Shown piece by piece: positions 77-26,246 of a stretch of 33,530 nucleotides of DNA. This stretch comes from an uncultured Hungatella sp. (lineage in GTDB: Bacteria; Bacillota; Clostridia; Lachnospirales; Lachnospiraceae): positions 1-33,530 of the forward strand of contig CAMTAF010000034.1 of NCBI GenBank assembly GCA_947066955.1, read 5' to 3'. A program made the position numbers and the translations under genes. The notes under the pieces are model-generated. The model saw only the letters and a list, made by a program, of their open reading frames with translations, was not told where the DNA came from and ran no database searches. Within the stretch, counting starts at the first letter, position 1, and each line of letters opens with the position of its first letter.

Positions 77-3000
77 TTGAAATTTGGCTTAAAAGCTCTT
101 GCGAACAAGAGAGTTTTTCATGGACTCGACAATAATGGGGTTAGAACAGATGGTCAATTACCGACATCAGATGATGAAGAGGATCATAATTCTTACTTTG
201 GTATGACGTTCCATGCGGATTTTGTTGTTGACCCGGGATATATAGCACCTTTGCGTTATTTTTTCTTTGGGGATGATGATCTATGGGTATTTAAGTCAGA
301 AGTTGTTACTGATGAGAACGGCATTGAAAGGCTTGAGAATACAGAATTGATCGCCGATATGGGGGGTGTGCATCCCTCTATTGGTGAGTATGTAGATTTA
401 TGGGATTATATTGATCCTATCGAATATTTTGATGCTACTGGAGCTCCCAATAACTCTAAGAAATACCGTTTAACCTTTTACTATACTGAGCGTGGCGCAT
501 CAGGGTCTACTTGTTATATGAGATTTTCTTTGCCATTTGAGTCCTTGGTAACTGAACCGCCCAGCCATGAAAATAAGCTGAGAATTGAAAAAAATATCGA
601 GTCAGTTGATTCAGCAGTGGATAAACTTGGGGAATACGATGAATTTGTGTTTGAGTTACATCTTTTTAATGAAAATGAGACAGAATTTGTGAATCGATAT
701 CCTTATAAACGTTATAAAAAAGATGGTACTGAAATAGAAACATCGCATGACTATATGTTCACAAATGCCGAGTTTTATCTTAAAGATGGAGAATATATTA
801 TTATAGATAATCTCCCTGCTGGTATGACTTATACGGTAAAAGAGCTTAATGAGATTAGGAATGAACAGACAAAAGAGAAAAGGACTTACGCCTCTACTGC
901 GTTTTATACTGGCACTATTGAAGATGGAATTGACAATAATGTTAGGGTAGAAGGTAAGGAAGTCAGCGGAAGAGTAGATGATAAAGCTCATATCGAATTG
1001 CCTAAGATGAATTATGTTGCATATGTCAATGCCCTTAACCCAGGGGTCCTGACTCTGAAAAAGCAGATGACAGGTGATAATATTCCTGTAGGAGAGCATA
1101 GTTTTAAGTTTAATGTTACACTTACAGATAGTAATGGTACACCTGTTCCTAAATTGTCTTGGTTGAAATATGTATCTGAAGATAATGGTAAACCAGATTC
1201 CCCAATGAAGAAGCAGGAGGACATTGAAAGTAGTTCCGGGCAATATGTTTTCGATTTAGAAGCCGGTGAGAAGATCATGCTTTACAACTTGCCGGTAGGC
1301 ACAAAGTATACAATCAAGGAAGAACCTGATGAGCATTTCCCATTGAATAAAGTTGAAGTCAATGGAAATAGGATTACCTCAAATAATAATATGATTGAGG
1401 GTTCTATAGCGGACAATTCTACCAGAGTTGACGTAGTGTATACTAATACCGCAGAGGTTTCGATTGAAAAGTCACAGGCGAAAGTCGTTGATGGTGAAGA
1501 GAACAGATTTACTACAGACGTTCTGACTGTGGAAGAGGGAAATAAAGTCGCGTATCGGCTTACTGTAAAAAATAATAGTAAAGTGTCTGTTCAGAATTTA
1601 ACTGTGGAGGACAAAATTCCTCTTGATAATAAGAATGGAAACAGGTTGATATTAGTGCAGGACACTATTACTGGGAACGGGAGTCTACAAGATGATGGCG
1701 AGACAATTCTTTGGACGATAGAGGAAATAGAATCTGGTGGATATGTAAATCTGGAGTTTCAGGTAGAAGTGCCAGAGGTTAGCGAAAGCCAAAGCTGGAA
1801 AAACATAGCGGTTTTGAAAGAACCAGATAGGCCAGATGTACCAGATGAACCTTCTAACCCTGTATATATTGCTCCGAAGCTGGAAATTAAAAAGGATCAG
1901 TCCAGAAATGGAGGAACGAGAACCACAGATATTTTAGGAGTAAATCCAGGTGACGAGGTTACTTACTACATTACTGTAAAGAACAATAGCGAAGGTGACG
2001 CTAAAGATGTGACTGTGACTGATGAAATCCCGCTCAGTGATAAGCCAGAGGGTGAAAACAAATATCGCCTGGAGAACGCGGTATCCATTAAAGGTAAGAT
2101 TCTTGAAACAGACAAGGTGTTCGGCGGCAAGCAGGAAGGCGACACCATCAAATGGGATCTGTTTGATTTGGCAGCAGGACAGACGGCGGAATTAGAGTTT
2201 ACAGTTACAGTTCCGGAGAATGGTTATCACTGGAAAAATGTGGGCTATGTAAGTTACACTCCAGATGTGGAACAAGATCCTAATGATCCCGATGCGCCAA
2301 AACCAGGCCCGACTTCTCCAGAGCCGACCAATGAGGTAGAGATCGAGAAGGGCATTGTAATTAAGAAAGCCCAAAAATTGAATGATGAGGGCAATTTTGA
2401 GTCAAATCCTTTGGTTGTAAAAGAGGGAAGTATTGTAACTTATCAGATTACAGTACAAAATGATCGCGATGCTACGGTTCGCAATCTGGTGATAGAGGAC
2501 GAGATTCCACTTGACGACACCGGGGCTAACCGTCTGAAACTTGTAGAGGGTTCTATCAACGCAGGAGGAACTCTTGACAGCGATGGAAAAACTATTCGAT
2601 GGTTGATTTCAGAGTTAGAGCCTCAGAAGGATGTAAAACTGGAATTTAAGGTTGAAGTGGAAAAGATCGGAGAAAGTCAGAGCTGGAAGAATATAGCGAT
2701 ACTTAAAGAACCTGATAAACCCGATAAACCATCCAACCCAGTGTATGATGTCCCCGGTCTCGTGATCAGTAAAGATCAGTCACGAAACGGAGGAGACAGA
2801 ACTACAGATACTCTGACAGTAAAAGCAGGGGATAAAGTCACCTATTATATTACTGTATTTAATAACGGAAAAGGCGACGCGAAAGATGTAACAGTAACAG
2901 ATGAGATCCCACTTAATATTTTGCCGGCGGATGACAAAAATCACCGTCTTGGACCGGTGGAGGAAGGTTCTATCAAGGGAACGGTCAATGGGACAGACCA

Positions 3001-6000
3001 AAACTTTGGCGGTTCTCAAGATGATACTGTTATTAAATGGGATAAATTCAATTTGAAAGCTGGTCAGACAGCTACACTGCAATTTACAGTTAGTGTTCCG
3101 GAAAAAGGTTTCCATTGGAAAAATGTGGGTTATGTGAGTTATACACCAGATATAAAACCAGACCCAGATGATCCCAATCCGCCAAAACCAGAGCCGACTA
3201 AGCCAGAACCTACTAATATAGTAGAGATCGAAAAGCCAGAGATCAGTATTCGAAAGACCCAGTATGTAGGAGACAACACTGCTGGAGAAACCGATAAACT
3301 GTTGAACGTAAAACCGAGTGATGTGATTACCTACTGCCTGACCGTATCCAATGGGTCAGACAAAGACGCCACAGATGTGATCATCACAGACCAGATCCCA
3401 GATGGCCTGACTCTTGTAAGTGGTTCCATCAGCGATGGAGGAACCATGGGAAGCAATAACACCATTACCTGGAAGTTTGTAACCCTGGGAGCCCACGATA
3501 GCAAAAAGCTTCAGTTCAAGGCTATCGTACCGCAGGTGGATCAAGCAGCTAAGTGGACGAATATCGCCTATGTGACCAGCGGAAATCCGGATCCCGATCC
3601 TGAGAAAGATCCCAAGACCCCATCCAATGAGGTAGAGGCGATTCCAGGTATCATCATCGAGAAGACCCAGCAGCTGAACGGGAAAGGCGAGCCCACCAAG
3701 GATCTGCTTCATGTGAAGAAGGATGATCAGGTGACCTACTATCTGACTGTCACCAATATCAGCGATGTCACGGCATTTGACGTGTATGTAAAAGATACGG
3801 TGCCGACAGATGATGCAGGAAATGAACTGAAATTGATAGAGGACTCTGTAAAAGGAGGAACCAGCCACACCGTCGCTAACAACAAGAGAGACATTACCTG
3901 GAAACTGGGAAATCTGAAGGCCGGAGAGAGCAGAACCGTAGAGTTCACCGTGATCGTTCCCGCAGGAGGAACCCACTGGATCAACGGAGCGTCCACAAAC
4001 TATATCCCGCCGGATCCCGAGAATCCCGACGAGCCAGGACCGGAAGACGACCGGACACCGGATATCCCCTCCAATGAAGTGGAGATCGAGAAACCCGAGA
4101 TCAACATCCGAAAGACTCAGTACATAGGAAACAATGCCGCAGGAGAGACCGATCAACAGCTGAACGTAAAACCGGGCGATGTGATCACCTACTGCCTGAC
4201 CGTATCCAACGGTTCAGACAAAGATGCCACTGACGTGATTGTCACCGATCAGATTCCAGAGGGACTGACTCTTGTAAATGGTTCCATCAGCGATGGAGGA
4301 ACCATGGGAAGCAATAACACCATTACGTGGAAGTTTGTAACCCTGGGAGCCCACAATAGCAAAAAGCTTCAGTTCAAGGCTACCGTACCGCAGGTGGATC
4401 AAGCAGCTAAGTGGACGAATATCGCCTATGTGACCAGCGGAAATCCGGATCCCGATCCTGAGAAAGATCCCAAGACCCCATCCAATGAGGTAGAGGCGAT
4501 TCCAGGTATCATCATCGAGAAGACCCAGCAGCTAAACGGGAAAGGCGAGCCCACCAAGGACCTGCTTCATGTGAAGAAGGATGATCAGGTGACCTACTAT
4601 CTGACTGTCACCAATGTCAGCGATGCCACAGCATTTGATGTGGTTGTAAAGGATACGGTGCCAACAGACAACGCAGGAAATGAACTGAAATTAGTGGAGA
4701 ACTCTGTAAAAGGAGGAACCAGCCACACCGTCGCTAACAACGATAGAGACATTACCTGGAAACTGGGAAATCTGAAGGCCGGAGAGAGCAGAACCGTAGA
4801 GTTCACCGTGATCGTTCCCGCAGGAGGAACCCACTGGATCAACGGAGCGTCCACAAACTATATCCCGCCGGATCCCGAGAATCCCGACAATCCGGGACCA
4901 GAGGAAGACCGGACACCGGATATCCCCTCTAATGAGGTGGAGATCGAGAAACCGGAGATCAACATCCAGAAGACCCAGTACATAGGAAACAATGCCGCGG
5001 GAGAGACCAAAGATCTGCTGAGCGTAAAACCAGGCGACGTGATCACCTACTGTCTGACCGTATCCAACGGATCAGACAAAGACGCCACAGACGTGATTGT
5101 CACAGATCAAATTCCAGATGGCCTGACTCTTGTAAATGGTTCCATCAGCGATGGAGGAACCGTGGGGAGAGATCAGATCATCACCTGGAAACTTGGAACT
5201 CTGAAAGCCCATGACAGCAAGAAGGTTCAGTTCAAGGCCACTGTGCCGCAGGTGGATCAAGCAGCCAGATGGACCAATATCGCCTATGTGACCAGCGGAA
5301 ACCCGGATCCCGATCCTGAGGAAGATCCCAAGACTCCCTCCAACGAGGTAGAGGCGATTCCAGGCATCACCATCGAGAAGACCCAGCAGAGGAACGGGGA
5401 AGGCAAGCCCACCAAGAATCTGCTCCATGTAAAGAAAGACGATCAGGTGACTTACTATCTGACCGTCACCAACACCAGCGACGCTACGGCATTTGACGTG
5501 GACGTAAAGGATACGGTGCCAACCGATGACGCCGGAAATGAGCTGGGATTGCTGGCCGACTCCGTAAAAGGAGGCGAAAGCCACGAGATCAGCGGAAGAG
5601 AGATCACCTGGCATCTGGGAGATCTGGCTCCGGGAGCCAGTGAGGTGGTAGAGTTCACAGTGGTGGTACCGGCAGAGGGAACCCACTGGATCAACGGGGC
5701 CTCCACCAGCTACATTCCGCCGGATCCCGAGGATCCCGGCAAGCCAGGACCGGAAGAAGACCGGACACCAGATATCCCATCCAATGAGGTGGAGATCGAC
5801 AAGCCCGAGATCAAGATCCGAAAGACCCAGTACGTGGGCGACAACGTGGACCAGGCTACAGTAGATCTGCTGAGTGTAAAACCCGGCGACGTGATCACCT
5901 ACAGCCTGACCGTAACCAATGAGTCTGACACAGAAGCAACGGATGTGATTGTCACCGACCAGATCCCCGAGGGCCTGACTCTTGTAAATGGTTCTGTCAG

Positions 6001-8578
6001 CGATGGAGGAACCGTGGGAAGAGATGGGATTATCACCTGGAATCTGGGAACCATAGGAGCTCACGGCGAGAAGAGAGTGACATTCAAAGTCACGGTGCCT
6101 CAGACAGATCAGTCAGCCAGATGGCGCAATATCGCCTATGTGACCAGCGGAAACCCGGATCCCGATCCGGAAGAAGATCCCAAGACCCCGTCCAACGAGG
6201 TAGAGGCGATTCCAGGCATCACCATCGAGAAGACCCAGCAGCGGAACGGAGAAGGCGAGCCCACCAAGAATCTGCTTCATGTGAAGGCTGATGACAGGGT
6301 AACCTATTACCTGACCATTATCAACACCAGCGATGCCACTGCATTTGACGTGATGGTAAAGGATACGATCCCGACAGATAACGCCGGCAATGAACTGCAG
6401 CTTGTGGCGGATTCCGTAAAGGGAGGAACCGGACACGAAATCAACGGTCGGGAGATCACCTGGACTTTGGGAGATTTGAAGGCCGGAGAGAAGCAAACCG
6501 TAGAGTTCACTGTGACAGTTCCCGCAGGAGGAACCCACTGGATCAACGGAGCGTCCACCAATTATATCCCGCCGGATCCGGAAGATCCGGAGAAACCAAG
6601 CCCGGATCCAGAGAGGACACCGGATATCCCCTCCAATGAGGTGGAGATCGACAAGAGCGACGCCAATGTTGCAGTCCGCAAACTCCAGTCCCTCAACGGC
6701 GGAGAGGCGACACTCAAAGTACTCAATGTAAAACCCGGCGATGTGATCACCTACCGTCTGGTGGTGAGCAATGAGTCGGAAAATCCTGTAGATGATGTGA
6801 TCGTCACTGATCCGGTGCCCGAGGGCCTGCTCCTTGATGAAGGCTCCATTGTACCGGAAGGAACCATTGAAACCAGCCAGAACGGTCAGCAGACCATCAC
6901 CTGGAAGCTTGGGACTCTGCAAGCAGGGGAAGAGAAGACTCTTGAATTCAAGGTCACTGTACCCAAGGCAGAGAAAGCAGCCAGATGGACCAACATCGCC
7001 TATGTGACCGAGGGAGACCCGGACCCCGATCCGGAAGATCCCAAGACCCCGTCCAACGAGGTAGAAGCTGTGCCAGGCATCGCGATTGAGAAGGAGCAGC
7101 AGGTCAACGGGCAGGGAGAGCCCACCAAGGAAACTCTCCATGTACAGAAAGGCGACCAGGTGACCTATTATCTGACCGTCACCAACATCAGCGAGGCAAA
7201 GGCATTTGACGTAATTGTAAAGGATCAGATTCCAGAGGACAGTGCCGGAAATCAGCTGGAGCTGGTGGAGGGCTCCGTAGAGGGAGGCGAAAGCCACACA
7301 GTCAGCGGAAGAGTCATCACCTGGAATGTGGGAGACTTGGAAGCAGGCCAGAGCCAGACCTTGAAGTTTACGGTGAAAGTGCCGTCAGACGGAAGCCGCT
7401 GGAAGAACATAGCAACCACCAGTTATGTGCCCGGAGATCCTGACGATCCCGAGAACCCGGATCCTGAGAATCCAGGTCCCGAGAGGCCGAACCCGGACGA
7501 TCCGGAGCCGGAGAGAACCCCGGATATCCCATCCAACGAGGTGGAGATCGAGGCAGGAACAACCAGGATCCAGCTGAGAGCCAGGAAAGTATTAAACGGA
7601 GCGAATCTGATCAATGGTCAGTTTACCTTCCGGATTCAGGGAATCAGCGCTGAGATCGTAGAAGAAGCTGAAAATGAGACTGAGAGGTCCGAGACCTCCC
7701 AAAAGCCGGAAGAGGCTGGAGAAGCCACCCCATCCAACGCGGAGCGTCAGGAAAGCGAGACCGGGGACAACGGCGGTGAGTCCGGAGGCCTGTTGAGAAT
7801 AGGCGGAAAGACCGTCACAGGCAAGGTTCTGTTCCAGGCCCGGGCCTTAGTGAAGAGAGACGAGATGAGCGTCGGAAACCACACGGTTCCCATGCCGGCC
7901 GTCAACACAGCTACCAACAACGAGGATGGAGAGATCCTGTTCGGAGAGATCGAGTACTCTCTGCCGGGAACCTACACCTACAAGATCACCGAGGTGAGGG
8001 AGAACCGGAGAGGCTACACCTTCGACACCACAGAGTATATCGTGGAAGTATTGGTAACCCGCGATGACGCCACCGGAGAGCTGAGAGCCCAGGTCCAGAT
8101 CGTGAAGCCGGAGGGAGCAGATGAGATTCTGTTTACCAACCGCTACAGAAGATCCAGCGGCGGGGGCGGCGGCAATCCTGGCGGAGGCGGCGGCGGAGAC
8201 CCGCAGCCAGGTCCGGGAACCGATCCTACGCCGGAAAATCCGGATACCCCGAATCCAGATCCAACCCCGGAGAATCCAGAGAACCCACAGCCAACGCCAG
8301 ACACCCCGGCTTCGGTGCTGCCGGATCCCAACGATCCCAACAGCCCGCCGACGGTGACCATAGAGGAGAACGGAGTCCCCAGAACCTATGTAAAGGTATG
8401 GGATCCGGTGAATGAAGAATTCATATACATCCCAGAAGAAGACGTGCCGCTGTTCGGCCTGCTTCCCAAGACAGGGGAGGAAGACCGGAGGAGATGGCTG
8501 GGAGTCCTCCTGGCATTATCCTTAGCAGGAATCGGAACCCTGACTATGGAAGAACGCCGGAGAAAGAAAAAAGAATAA
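77..8578 (+). CDS. Giant LPXTG-anchored DUF11-repeat surface adhesin, 5' end truncated or outside frame
   Basis: The 2833-residue frame opens at a TTG and lacks any signal peptide, so this is probably the 3' part of a longer gene. Residues 40-155 resemble the fibro-slime/PA14-like head (GDDDLWVF at 65-72, DMGGVH at 94-99, ERGAS at 138-142). Residues about 165-300 and 320-455 look like Cna-B/SpaA-type isopeptide domains. From residue 461 to about 2490 there are 14 DUF11 domains in alternating A and B types, giving a long stalk. Residues about 2495-2685 resemble an FctA-type pilin domain. A Gly-rich then Pro-rich linker leads to LPKTG (2796-2800), a hydrophobic helix and a basic tail, the classic sortase signal. 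No sortase gene is in the window. The expected role is a surface-anchored adhesive fibre; the ligand is unknown. The first 2 kb is visibly more AT-rich than the repeats. The frame is open upstream only to a TAG at 20-22 and has no better start. Confidence 0.85.
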   Translation: MKFGLKALANKRVFHGLDNNGVRTDGQLPTSDDEEDHNSYFGMTFHADFVVDPGYIAPLRYFFFGDDDLWVFKSEVVTDENGIERLENTELIADMGGVHPSIGEYVDLWDYIDPIEYFDATGAPNNSKKYRLTFYYTERGASGSTCYMRFSLPFESLVTEPPSHENKLRIEKNIESVDSAVDKLGEYDEFVFELHLFNENETEFVNRYPYKRYKKDGTEIETSHDYMFTNAEFYLKDGEYIIIDNLPAGMTYTVKELNEIRNEQTKEKRTYASTAFYTGTIEDGIDNNVRVEGKEVSGRVDDKAHIELPKMNYVAYVNALNPGVLTLKKQMTGDNIPVGEHSFKFNVTLTDSNGTPVPKLSWLKYVSEDNGKPDSPMKKQEDIESSSGQYVFDLEAGEKIMLYNLPVGTKYTIKEEPDEHFPLNKVEVNGNRITSNNNMIEGSIADNSTRVDVVYTNTAEVSIEKSQAKVVDGEENRFTTDVLTVEEGNKVAYRLTVKNNSKVSVQNLTVEDKIPLDNKNGNRLILVQDTITGNGSLQDDGETILWTIEEIESGGYVNLEFQVEVPEVSESQSWKNIAVLKEPDRPDVPDEPSNPVYIAPKLEIKKDQSRNGGTRTTDILGVNPGDEVTYYITVKNNSEGDAKDVTVTDEIPLSDKPEGENKYRLENAVSIKGKILETDKVFGGKQEGDTIKWDLFDLAAGQTAELEFTVTVPENGYHWKNVGYVSYTPDVEQDPNDPDAPKPGPTSPEPTNEVEIEKGIVIKKAQKLNDEGNFESNPLVVKEGSIVTYQITVQNDRDATVRNLVIEDEIPLDDTGANRLKLVEGSINAGGTLDSDGKTIRWLISELEPQKDVKLEFKVEVEKIGESQSWKNIAILKEPDKPDKPSNPVYDVPGLVISKDQSRNGGDRTTDTLTVKAGDKVTYYITVFNNGKGDAKDVTVTDEIPLNILPADDKNHRLGPVEEGSIKGTVNGTDQNFGGSQDDTVIKWDKFNLKAGQTATLQFTVSVPEKGFHWKNVGYVSYTPDIKPDPDDPNPPKPEPTKPEPTNIVEIEKPEISIRKTQYVGDNTAGETDKLLNVKPSDVITYCLTVSNGSDKDATDVIITDQIPDGLTLVSGSISDGGTMGSNNTITWKFVTLGAHDSKKLQFKAIVPQVDQAAKWTNIAYVTSGNPDPDPEKDPKTPSNEVEAIPGIIIEKTQQLNGKGEPTKDLLHVKKDDQVTYYLTVTNISDVTAFDVYVKDTVPTDDAGNELKLIEDSVKGGTSHTVANNKRDITWKLGNLKAGESRTVEFTVIVPAGGTHWINGASTNYIPPDPENPDEPGPEDDRTPDIPSNEVEIEKPEINIRKTQYIGNNAAGETDQQLNVKPGDVITYCLTVSNGSDKDATDVIVTDQIPEGLTLVNGSISDGGTMGSNNTITWKFVTLGAHNSKKLQFKATVPQVDQAAKWTNIAYVTSGNPDPDPEKDPKTPSNEVEAIPGIIIEKTQQLNGKGEPTKDLLHVKKDDQVTYYLTVTNVSDATAFDVVVKDTVPTDNAGNELKLVENSVKGGTSHTVANNDRDITWKLGNLKAGESRTVEFTVIVPAGGTHWINGASTNYIPPDPENPDNPGPEEDRTPDIPSNEVEIEKPEINIQKTQYIGNNAAGETKDLLSVKPGDVITYCLTVSNGSDKDATDVIVTDQIPDGLTLVNGSISDGGTVGRDQIITWKLGTLKAHDSKKVQFKATVPQVDQAARWTNIAYVTSGNPDPDPEEDPKTPSNEVEAIPGITIEKTQQRNGEGKPTKNLLHVKKDDQVTYYLTVTNTSDATAFDVDVKDTVPTDDAGNELGLLADSVKGGESHEISGREITWHLGDLAPGASEVVEFTVVVPAEGTHWINGASTSYIPPDPEDPGKPGPEEDRTPDIPSNEVEIDKPEIKIRKTQYVGDNVDQATVDLLSVKPGDVITYSLTVTNESDTEATDVIVTDQIPEGLTLVNGSVSDGGTVGRDGIITWNLGTIGAHGEKRVTFKVTVPQTDQSARWRNIAYVTSGNPDPDPEEDPKTPSNEVEAIPGITIEKTQQRNGEGEPTKNLLHVKADDRVTYYLTIINTSDATAFDVMVKDTIPTDNAGNELQLVADSVKGGTGHEINGREITWTLGDLKAGEKQTVEFTVTVPAGGTHWINGASTNYIPPDPEDPEKPSPDPERTPDIPSNEVEIDKSDANVAVRKLQSLNGGEATLKVLNVKPGDVITYRLVVSNESENPVDDVIVTDPVPEGLLLDEGSIVPEGTIETSQNGQQTITWKLGTLQAGEEKTLEFKVTVPKAEKAARWTNIAYVTEGDPDPDPEDPKTPSNEVEAVPGIAIEKEQQVNGQGEPTKETLHVQKGDQVTYYLTVTNISEAKAFDVIVKDQIPEDSAGNQLELVEGSVEGGESHTVSGRVITWNVGDLEAGQSQTLKFTVKVPSDGSRWKNIATTSYVPGDPDDPENPDPENPGPERPNPDDPEPERTPDIPSNEVEIEAGTTRIQLRARKVLNGANLINGQFTFRIQGISAEIVEEAENETERSETSQKPEEAGEATPSNAERQESETGDNGGESGGLLRIGGKTVTGKVLFQARALVKRDEMSVGNHTVPMPAVNTATNNEDGEILFGEIEYSLPGTYTYKITEVRENRRGYTFDTTEYIVEVLVTRDDATGELRAQVQIVKPEGADEILFTNRYRRSSGGGGGNPGGGGGGDPQPGPGTDPTPENPDTPNPDPTPENPENPQPTPDTPASVLPDPNDPNSPPTVTIEENGVPRTYVKVWDPVNEEFIYIPEEDVPLFGLLPKTGEEDRRRWLGVLLALSLAGIGTLTMEERRRKKKE
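3239..7554 (+). repeat. Tandem long repeats of about 858 bp encoding DUF11 A/B domain pairs
   Basis: Equivalent points in successive A-type domains fall at 3239, 4097, 4955 and 5807, and in B-type domains at 3661, 4519, 5377, 6229 and 7090, giving periods of 852-861 bp, always a multiple of three. The first two units are nearly identical at DNA level: only scattered single differences occur between 3541-3780 and 4399-4638. Later units diverge, and the two pairs before 3239 are much more diverged and AT-richer. This pattern suggests recent duplication or gene conversion. The two domain types differ at their ends: A-type domains close with a WTNIAYVTSGNPDPDP-like segment and B-type with HWINGASTNYIPPDPE-like. 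Confidence 0.9.
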
Positions 8579-8618: not shown

Positions 8619-8836
8619 CAGTCTTGTATTTTTTGCATGTCCATGGTAAAATGTGGACAGAGCAAAGATTTCTCACAACCCTGACAGAAAGTCAGGCGTA
8701 CAGGCGGCAGGAGCCGTGTCTTGAAAATTCTCATTTTCTATAGAAATCATGTGCTTTAAATCCATATGTAAAACCAAAACCGCCGCGCTATTGTTGCGGA
8801 GGAAAAAGGTATCCAAAAGAAAAGAGAGGAGAAGGG
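8619..8836. other. Intergenic stretch with small inverted repeats; no clear promoter
   Basis: Contents are a dyad TGTCCA (8638-8643)/TGGACA (8654-8659), a hairpin CCTGAC-AGAAA-GTCAGG (8680-8696) and a 12-bp palindrome TTTCTATAGAAA (8735-8746). A TTGAAA at 8721 and a TATAGA at 8739 are only 12 bp apart, too close for a standard sigma-A promoter. No gene was found here. Confidence 0.5.
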
Positions 8837-9949
8837 TTGAAAAAGGAAAAAATACAGTGGCATCCAGTGTTCTGCGCAGCTCTGGAGGTGGAACTGGAGA
8901 GCGTGGATGGGATTCAATTCCATCGGGAATATAACCTGACCAGAAAGCCGCTCCAGATAGACATCGTCATCGTAGATGAGGAGGAAGGCAAAGACGAAGC
9001 GTTTTTAGGATGCCCTCTACCGACTTGGCAAGGTCCGCGGAGCGGGGCATGCCGTACCGATAGAGAGGAAGGCAAAGGCGAAGCGTTTTTAGGATGTCTT
9101 CCATCGACATGGCAGGGACCGCAAAGCGGGGTGTGCCGTACCGGTACGAGAGAGAAAGAAGAAAGAAGGAAAAAAAGACACAGGGAAGGTCTGCCCGGGA
9201 TTCTGCGCAGGTATAATATCATCGAATATAAGAGCCCTGACGATACCTTGAGCGTCAATGATTTCTACAAGGTGATGTCCTACGCAGGGCTATTCAAATC
9301 AGAGAGCCCGCGGGAAGATGAGATAAAGGCCGGAGATATAGCCGTGATCTTGGTAAGCTCCAAAAGGCCGCTTAAGCTCTTGAAATATCTGAGGGATTAT
9401 TGTAGGATGAAAGTAGAAGAGGTGGAAAAGGGGATTTATGAGTGCAAGGGGAATTGGATATTTAAAACCTATGTAGTCATAGCGCATCCCCGCTATGGAG
9501 GAGCTTACCCATGGCTGAACAGCCTGAGCAAAGAGCTGAAAATGAATGACAGAAAAAAGATTGAGAGGCTGCTGGAAGAGGCGGACGAGAGGAAGGACAG
9601 CAAGAGAGACGCGATTTTAGAACTGGTCCTCAAAGCCAATCCAGAGATGGCCGGAAAAATGAAGGAGGACGATGATATGAGGGCGATTCAAGCGCTTTTC
9701 GCGCCAGAGCTTGCGGCAGCGGAAGAAAGAGCGGAAAAGCGAGGAGAAAAACGAGGGCAGAACAGCAAGCTGGTCAGTCTGGTATGCAGGAAACTGAGGA
9801 AAGGGAAAGGACAGGAAGTTATCGCAGAAGAACTGGAGGAGGACCCGGGGCTGATTAAAGTCATATGCCAGGCAGCGAGGATTTTCGCGCCGGAATATGA
9901 GGAGGAGAAGGTTTTTGGGGAATTTACGAAGATTTTGGAAAAGCAGTAA
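8837..9949 (+). CDS. PD-(D/E)XK nuclease-fold protein (Lachnospiraceae expanded family) with in-frame repeat insertion
   Basis: This 370-residue protein starts at TTG 8837 behind a GAGAGGAGAAGGG ribosome site and opens with KIQWHP, typical of a family present in many copies in Lachnospiraceae and often misannotated. The PD-(D/E)XK core is visible: D42 in LQIDIVIV, then E130 and K132 in NIIEYKSPDD, followed by NDFYKVMSYAGLFK. In relatives as I recall them, only a short loop joins the D strand to the ExK strand. Here about 75 extra residues (roughly 48-122) lie between them, mostly made of two copies of a 28-residue unit encoded by a dispersed DNA repeat, plus a very basic stretch (REKEERRKKRHRE). 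The C-terminal half has a charged helical region and EKRGEKRGQ-type motifs seen in Rpn/transposase-like nucleases. Whether the product is active is uncertain. Biological role unknown; likely a mobile or selfish gene. Confidence 0.72.
   Translation: MKKEKIQWHPVFCAALEVELESVDGIQFHREYNLTRKPLQIDIVIVDEEEGKDEAFLGCPLPTWQGPRSGACRTDREEGKGEAFLGCLPSTWQGPQSGVCRTGTREKEERRKKRHREGLPGILRRYNIIEYKSPDDTLSVNDFYKVMSYAGLFKSESPREDEIKAGDIAVILVSSKRPLKLLKYLRDYCRMKVEEVEKGIYECKGNWIFKTYVVIAHPRYGGAYPWLNSLSKELKMNDRKKIERLLEEADERKDSKRDAILELVLKANPEMAGKMKEDDDMRAIQALFAPELAAAEERAEKRGEKRGQNSKLVSLVCRKLRKGKGQEVIAEELEEDPGLIKVICQAARIFAPEYEEEKVFGEFTKILEKQ
8981..9062 (+). repeat. Dispersed two-hairpin repeat element, copy A (inside nuclease gene)
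   Basis: Copy A begins GAGGAAGGCAAAG and carries hairpin 2 at 9027-9053: GGCA, four bases, CCGC, loop GGA, GCGG, four bases, TGCC. Hairpin 1 (GGAAGGCA with the downstream TGCCCTCT) is imperfect here. It is read in frame as EEGKDEAFLGC... followed by TWQGPRSGACRT. It forms a direct tandem repeat, period 84 bp, with copy B. Confidence 0.85.
9065..9146 (+). repeat. Dispersed two-hairpin repeat element, copy B (inside nuclease gene)
   Basis: Copy B begins 84 bp (28 codons) after copy A with the same GAGGAAGGCAAAG start. Hairpin 1 is GGAAGGCA paired with TGTCTTCC. Hairpin 2 spans 9111-9137: GGCA, four bases, CCGC, loop AAA, GCGG, four bases, TGCC. Many of the differences from copy A fall in third codon positions or in hairpin loops. 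Confidence 0.85.
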
Positions 9950-21213: not shown

Positions 21214-21219
21214 GATAAG

Positions 21220-21298
21220 GAAGAAGGCAAATGGGTCGCATTTTAGGATGCCTTCCGACGACCTGGCAGGTGACGCGAAGCGGCGCGTGCCGAACCGA
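21220..21298 (+). repeat. Dispersed two-hairpin repeat element, copy C (upstream of purL)
   Basis: Hairpin 1 pairs GAAGGCA (21223-21229) with TGCCTTC (21249-21255). Hairpin 2 is 21265-21291: GGCA, GGTGA, CGC, loop GAA, GCG, GCGCG, TGCC, again 27 nt. The TTTTAGGATGCC core is shared with copies A and B. It fills most of the gap between hipA and purL. Confidence 0.85.
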
Positions 21299-26204: not shown

Positions 26205-26246
26205 AAGACGACCTGGCAGGTTCCGCTTTGCGGGGCATGCGGTTGC
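26205..26246 (+). repeat. Dispersed repeat element, copy D (shortened; only hairpin 2)
   Basis: Only the 3' half of the element is present: GACGACCTGGCAGG followed by hairpin 2 at 26215-26241 (GGCA, four bases, CCGC, loop TTT, GCGG, four bases, TGCG). It ends about 6 nt before the AGGAGG ribosome site of the GH4 gene, so it lies in the 5' leader. Confidence 0.75.

Follow-up and report, generated by a model that had tools for sequence, protein, structure and literature searches.

How does a tandem repeat come to lie in frame between the catalytic residues of a nuclease-like protein while the gene remains open? The question is raised by a reading frame of 370 codons on a contig of an uncultured Hungatella sp. 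(the window, in what follows, is the whole stretch of 33,530 nucleotides that was analysed). An earlier note on this DNA had drawn attention to two 84-bp copies within the frame, and had compared them with the Rickettsia palindromic elements (RPEs), which create new peptide segments inside genes. Our analysis indicates that the insert very probably consists of two tandem, decayed copies of GA-cis (Rfam RF02987), which were captured by an already existing gene of the PD-(D/E)XK family. The features on which the argument draws are collected in Table 1.

Table 1. Coordinates of the host gene, of its insert and of related repeats (window positions unless a contig or locus is given)
Feature	Position	Strand	Remarks
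Host ORF, 370 aa, PD-(D/E)XK-like	8837..9949	+	TTG start at 8837; homologues share the start position
Purine-rich ribosome-binding site ahead of TTG	about 8824-8834	+	
D42 codon, on strand 39-47	8960..8962	+	invariant in 70 sequences
E130-Y131-K132 codons (ExK motif), strand 126-131	9224..9232	+	invariant in 70 sequences
Decayed GA-cis unit 1, in frame	8979..9062	+	reads EEGKDEAFLGCPLPTWQGPRSGACRTD; RF02987 25.9 bits
Decayed GA-cis unit 2, in frame	9063..9146	+	reads EEGKGEAFLGCLPSTWQGPQSGVCRTG; RF02987 19.1 bits
Purine-rich flank	9147..9190	+	encodes basic stretch REKEERRKKRHREG; similar flank behind the paralogue's single unit
GA-cis unit before AGGAGG and ATG of 1254-aa PurL-type gene	21218..21292	+	
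GA-cis 3' half unit before AAGGAGG and ATG	26207..26243	+	
Near-perfect second GA-cis in C-terminal part of paralogue	G000:C111:496-577	-	at the junction of AAGATGA and AGGAGGACG; breaks the frame
50-bp repeat	G000:C111 about 1020-1080	-	also e.g. L162:11-177; L116:1078-1186 (-)

No Pfam or NCBIfam family names the host protein. In a model built from an alignment of 70 sequences, the core has pLDDT values mostly of 85-98, and the conserved D...ExK motif, with D42, E130 and K132 invariant, is found on adjacent strands. Comparison of model residues 2-231 with known structures by VIA-align gave EndoMS/NucS as the top matches (Z of 9.4 and 9.3), and the matches below these are largely other PD-(D/E)XK enzymes. 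As the Foldseek list for the modelled protein contains no match below 0.001, the PD-(D/E)XK assignment rests on this aligner together with the invariant D and ExK. On this model the core fold resembles that of PD-(D/E)XK nucleases, the nuclease activity being putative. When the window gene was compared with a paralogue on another contig (C111), the core gave a dN/dS of 0.11 at a dS of 0.57 over 145 codons, and at the codon level the core shows purifying selection. Elsewhere in the window, positions 77-8578 hold an ORF of 2833 aa in which a repeat of about 858 bp occurs four to five times, and which encodes an LPKTG-like motif towards its end (8460-8480); judged by these features it is probably a surface protein anchored by sortase.

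The insert proper is a head-to-tail pair with a period of 84 and 84% identity (8981-9152, detected by Tandem Repeats Finder and by a repeat finder), and the ORF crosses both units without a stop, reading EEGKDEAFLGCPLPTWQGPRSGACRTD / REEGKGEAFLGCLPSTWQGPQSGVCRTG and then the basic stretch TREKEERRKKRHREG. If the insert is translated, DEAFLGCPLPTWQGPR would be a tryptic peptide derived from it. Repeat finders, reading frame and protein alignment thus confirm the position that the earlier note had given to the copies, in frame between D42 and E130/K132. Its statement that each copy spans exactly 28 codons is true and unremarkable, for tandem periods in the repeat family vary between 75 and 93, and 26 of the 61 are divisible by three. 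The Cys- and Trp-containing repeats and the basic stretch which it described are indeed added to the protein, the Cys/Trp motif being the product of the consensus repeat itself in that frame.

Alignment to relatives lacking the segment, and prediction of the structure with and without it, give a consistent picture of what was added. The spacing from D to E amounts to 88 residues here, as against 27 in 67 and 26 in 2 of the 69 homologues, and the insert is absent from every one of these; of the 61 extra residues, 56 come from the two units and the others from a short basic stretch. In a model of an insert-free homologue the helices and strands follow one another identically, and a coil of 17 residues takes the place of the insert, so that the two predictions have their core in common. 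Residues 60-101 of the window protein have pLDDT below 50; the loop is predicted to be disordered, and the units are probably translated as an additional, floppy loop of the protein. The insertion point, GTAGATGAGGAGGAAGG, is a purine run resembling a Shine-Dalgarno sequence, and a second purine-rich run follows the units. No close insert-free relative was found, so that the exact empty site is not visible, and the two-copy state rests on one assembly, a draft of 240 contigs and 4.22 Mb that is 92% complete.

The insert as a BLAST query recovers copies from its own genome at E-values down to 5e-37, and these matches bear directly on the view that the segment is an ordinary domain of a subfamily, with a DNA likeness to the repeat that arose by chance. 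The paralogue has the segment too, as that view would expect. It is hardly credible all the same, because the 69 homologues lack the insert and the DNA matches non-coding, intergenic copies at an E-value of about 1e-37. The observation that the earlier note had named as decisive against an inserted repeat, namely many species carrying the segment as an ordinary domain, was searched for and no such case was found.

The identity of the repeat emerges from its sister copies in the genome, which score up to 50.7 bits against RF02987, where the gathering score is 34.7. Both window copies fall below this score (Table 1); since the segment matches the genomic copies to 5e-37 and the sisters reach 50.7 bits, the window units are, by sequence descent, GA-cis derivatives even under the Rfam threshold. 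GA-cis was reportedly described in 2017, as a cis-regulatory RNA and not as a spreading repeat; it is also named in the Rfam 15 paper. Its unit comprises 81 nt, begins with AGGAGG and folds into two hairpins, and the aligned genomic copies have AGGAGGAAGGCAAACGCGNAGCGTTTTTAGGATGCCTTCCGACGACNTGGCAGGTGNCGCGAAGCGGCGCGTGCCGATACC in common. Covariation supports this structure: 97.6% of cells are paired with 29 double changes, compared with 94.3% and 7.9 in shuffles, and in controls with the structure slid along the alignment pairing falls to about 30-50%. The two-hairpin structure with compensatory changes is found in the repeat family as a whole and also between species, in which the hairpin sequences are wholly different and the pairing is retained. 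Palindromy is not the defining trait of the unit, which consists of two separate hairpins behind AGGAGG. At what is apparently one site in three species (loci L105, L106 and L110) the arrays vary in copy number, and the units within an array resemble each other, which looks like local homogenisation.

A covariance model made from 43 copies gave at least 156 matches in the genome, a lower bound for which only 150 candidates were scored. In 1.22 Mb of sequence, chosen for containing GA-cis copies, 221 hit units form 160 arrays, of which 107 are single, 45 double and 8 triple. When the arrays at contig ends are set aside, 148 remain; 138 of these are followed within 30 nt by a Shine-Dalgarno-like motif, and in 121 a start codon comes next that opens an ORF no shorter than 60 aa. 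In the same DNA, 501 of 2059 AGGAGG motifs are followed by such a start. Given this background, genuine translation starts are favoured by the process, or else copies that inserted elsewhere have been lost. An upstream ORF is detectable for 85 arrays, and in 17 of them the first base of its stop codon immediately precedes the unit, giving TAGGAGG. In-frame coding copies were found among the 148 arrays only in the window gene and its paralogue, and the window copies (8979-9146) are not followed by a Shine-Dalgarno motif and start codon, in departure from the upstream-of-gene placement. The notion that the family mainly makes peptides inside genes, which the RPE comparison carried with it, is not supported, with 121 of 148 arrays directly before a Shine-Dalgarno motif and start codon.

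For an ORF to capture such a unit, little more is required than a length that is a multiple of three, because 143 of the 169 units from the genome are open in the frame used in the window. Two further candidates for coding roles were rejected: 1) a conserved short peptide encoded in the repeat, as its frame stands in a near-random relation to that of the gene downstream (39/35/22) and stops are common; and 2) a second in-frame case at locus L153, with an open frame of 564 aa, the longest other one through a unit, whose upstream part, judged by eye, is not gene-like. At sites downstream of arrays in the same genome, the bases after GGAGG resemble the start of the repeat, with GGAGGAAGGCA following GGAGG in 13% of them vs 1.4% at other Shine-Dalgarno sites; in sequence it is as if some such sites were remnants of lost copies.

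Comparison with relatives indicates how these copies came to be where they are. A unit precedes purL here and is absent in all 22 readable congeners, where the Shine-Dalgarno sequence alone is kept; two units precede guaA here and none in 19 congeners, again with the Shine-Dalgarno sequence kept; and a gyrB/parE-type gene has a partial copy in this genome only, with none at the other 19 of 20 loci. Because GA-cis is present at these sites only in its own genome, the comparison of orthologues shows gain in one lineage at three sites, and hence that the repeat spreads. By Rfam score RF02987 is patchy: among 299 genomes sampled across the taxonomic family, 21 have it. The model made from this genome detects copies in 16 of 25 other members of the genus and in 1 of 90 other relatives searched. 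In other genera, the start codon of an open frame longer than 60 aa lies within 45 nt in 19 of 22 sites.

The means of spread was sought among several candidate movers. A Y1 transposase was rejected, with no PF01797 match in this 92% complete genome and 5 of 14 control genomes positive; two reverse transcriptases are present, neither with GA-cis nearby; and carriage on phages, plasmids or viral contigs gave no match. No target-site duplication was found beyond AGGAGG: the sequence ahead of the first AGGAGG resembles that ahead of the downstream AGGAGG no more than shuffled pairs resemble each other, so that transposition by a defined reaction is not demonstrated. We found no described dispersed repeat that targets Shine-Dalgarno sequences in the literature. 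We infer that AGGAGG is the target of GA-cis.

The paralogue on C111, with a core 77% identical to that of the window gene, supplies the order of events. At the codon where the window gene carries its insert, the paralogue has one degenerate unit, so the insertion is older than the duplication of the gene, and a second unit occurs in the window copy only; one unit first and two later would be the sequence of states. The paralogue is itself broken, by a frameshift in a G-run and two insertions, and therefore is no witness that the insert is compatible with function. One of these insertions is a second GA-cis (Table 1), located at an AGGAGG within the gene that, with the ATG behind it, imitates a translation start; the other is a different repeat of 50 bp with TATAAT on both sides. 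This breakage of a sister gene by frameshift, TATAAT-flanked insertion and second GA-cis lends some plausibility to the idea that the window gene, too, is drifting to a pseudogene and its insert is yet to be purged; we consider it improbable, given that all 370 codons of the window ORF are intact, that its start is plausible, and that the core has the low dN/dS reported above.

The coding copies have decayed further than their relatives. Identity to the genomic consensus is 79% for unit 1, the lowest of 169, and 80% for unit 2, against a median of 94%. The window copies fold at -28 to -29 kcal/mol and typical copies at -40 to -45, and the folding energy z-scores, which are -5.1 and -6.1 in typical copies, come to -1.0 and -2.7 in the two window units and to -0.1 in the paralogue's copy; in the coding copies the RNA fold has mostly been lost and the frame preserved. 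This loss tells against the copies still acting as GA-cis RNA in the mRNA, for instance as an internal translation-start or regulatory element. Unit 2 does surpass all but 1 of 200 shuffles in folding, and elsewhere the element is located at translation starts, but with the lack of a Shine-Dalgarno-preceded start codon after the units and a homologous frame that runs on past the insert, such a role is very unlikely.

A different possibility is that the insert was recruited, the loop having a function and its amino-acid sequence being held by selection; candidate roles would be contact of the basic stretch with nucleic acid, a site for a partner, or a disulphide or metal site formed by the Cys residues. 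Between units 1 and 2 there are 6 synonymous and 6 non-synonymous differences, the neutral expectation being 23% synonymous (p = 0.04), the frame is kept in both although they are the most diverged of 169, and the basic stretch flanks them. The first of these signals weakened when non-coding copies served as the control: read in the same frame they already have a low ratio of 0.54, from which the 0.30 of the window copies does not differ significantly (p = 0.16), so that selection on the insert is not supported. The paralogue's unit has a ratio of 0.96 against the consensus, and the insert is predicted to be disordered. When substitutions are placed at random on the consensus, two units stay open in 38% of cases after 20 changes and in 24% after 30, and the open frame alone is therefore weak evidence of selection. 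Recruitment thus seems unlikely to us, and we infer that the protein tolerates the loop without benefiting from it.

Capture of decayed GA-cis by the nuclease-like gene, the reading we favour, would then have proceeded in the following steps. 1) GA-cis has multiplied to more than 150 copies, nearly all on the sense strand just before a Shine-Dalgarno sequence. 2) One copy would have entered the gene at a purine-rich run, GATGAGGAGG, resembling such a sequence. 3) The entry site would correspond to the loop between the strand of the catalytic Asp and that of the ExK motif. 4) The unit, open in the host frame by chance, would have added a peptide loop and left the gene unbroken. 5) The gene would subsequently have been duplicated, and in the window copy the unit doubled to two. 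6) The RNA fold has largely decayed with the frame kept, and on the prediction the protein core folds as usual, with a disordered loop of some 61 residues emerging from it.

The 50-bp repeat seen in the paralogue is dispersed in this genome and has no Rfam name. It reads AGGAAGTGCGCTGATGCGCACGCAGGTCAGCACCCTGACGGGTGGTGACA, usually with TATAAT or TACAAT before it and the same motif a few bases after, and gave 36 hits in the fetched loci of this genome, on TATAAT/TACAAT boxes and also in tandem; from this context it appears to be located on -10 promoter boxes, with TATAAT restored on the far side. As far as their surroundings tell, two unrelated small repeats occupy two start signals of gene expression in this genome, and both also land on look-alikes within genes. 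A more general proposal, on which we find the scales evenly balanced, is that GA-cis is a mobile repeat that lands on the Shine-Dalgarno AGGAGG and preserves the signal on its far side, that a look-alike inside a gene yields a new loop instead, and that the second family may likewise exploit -10 boxes.

The locus offers a traceable case in which a non-coding structured repeat would have become protein sequence in a predicted enzyme, with 69 insert-free homologues and a paralogue to give the order of events. It would also recast the GA-cis of Rfam as a spreading repeat, gained at the Shine-Dalgarno sites of single genes and missing in relatives. Landing at such sites, if true, lets GA-cis spread with little harm, and would explain hundreds of repeat copies in a compact genome without gene breakage.

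With respect to known systems, the likeness to GA-cis RF02987 lies in sequence, in the two-hairpin structure and in the pre-gene placement of the sister copies above the gathering score; the window copies differ in being inside coding sequence, below threshold and with most of the fold lost. RPEs are short, dispersed, structured repeats found in frame in ORFs, where they add peptide to conserved proteins (PMC3733652), and the window locus is likewise a short structured repeat in frame within an otherwise conserved protein. The comparison drawn in the earlier note holds for the locus, as a dispersed hairpin-forming repeat that entered a pre-existing gene in frame, and not for the family: in-frame insertion is the exception here (one gene and its paralogue vs 121 of 148 arrays at translation starts), and insertion into many different ORFs, as known for RPEs, was not observed among the 148 arrays. 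The taxon is another one, GA-cis carries its own AGGAGG, and the likeness is drawn from the description of RPEs, not from their sequence. REP/REPIN elements with their RAYT are similar to GA-cis in that it is short, palindrome-rich, high-copy and mostly extragenic, and REPs inside genes have been reported (PMC3733652); however, the GA-cis genome is without a Y1 transposase match, and GA-cis lies before Shine-Dalgarno sites, whereas REP/REPIN are mostly downstream of genes. With PD-(D/E)XK nucleases (EndoMS/NucS, McrC, LmuA and others) the host protein shares its predicted core, at the Z-scores given above, and the invariant D and ExK, and it differs from them in its unusually long D-to-E loop and in belonging to no named Pfam or NCBIfam family. 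In-frame insertion of short repeats is thus already known (PMC3733652); what the present locus would add is the identity of the repeat, its tie to translation starts, and a protein family in which the states before and after insertion are well resolved.
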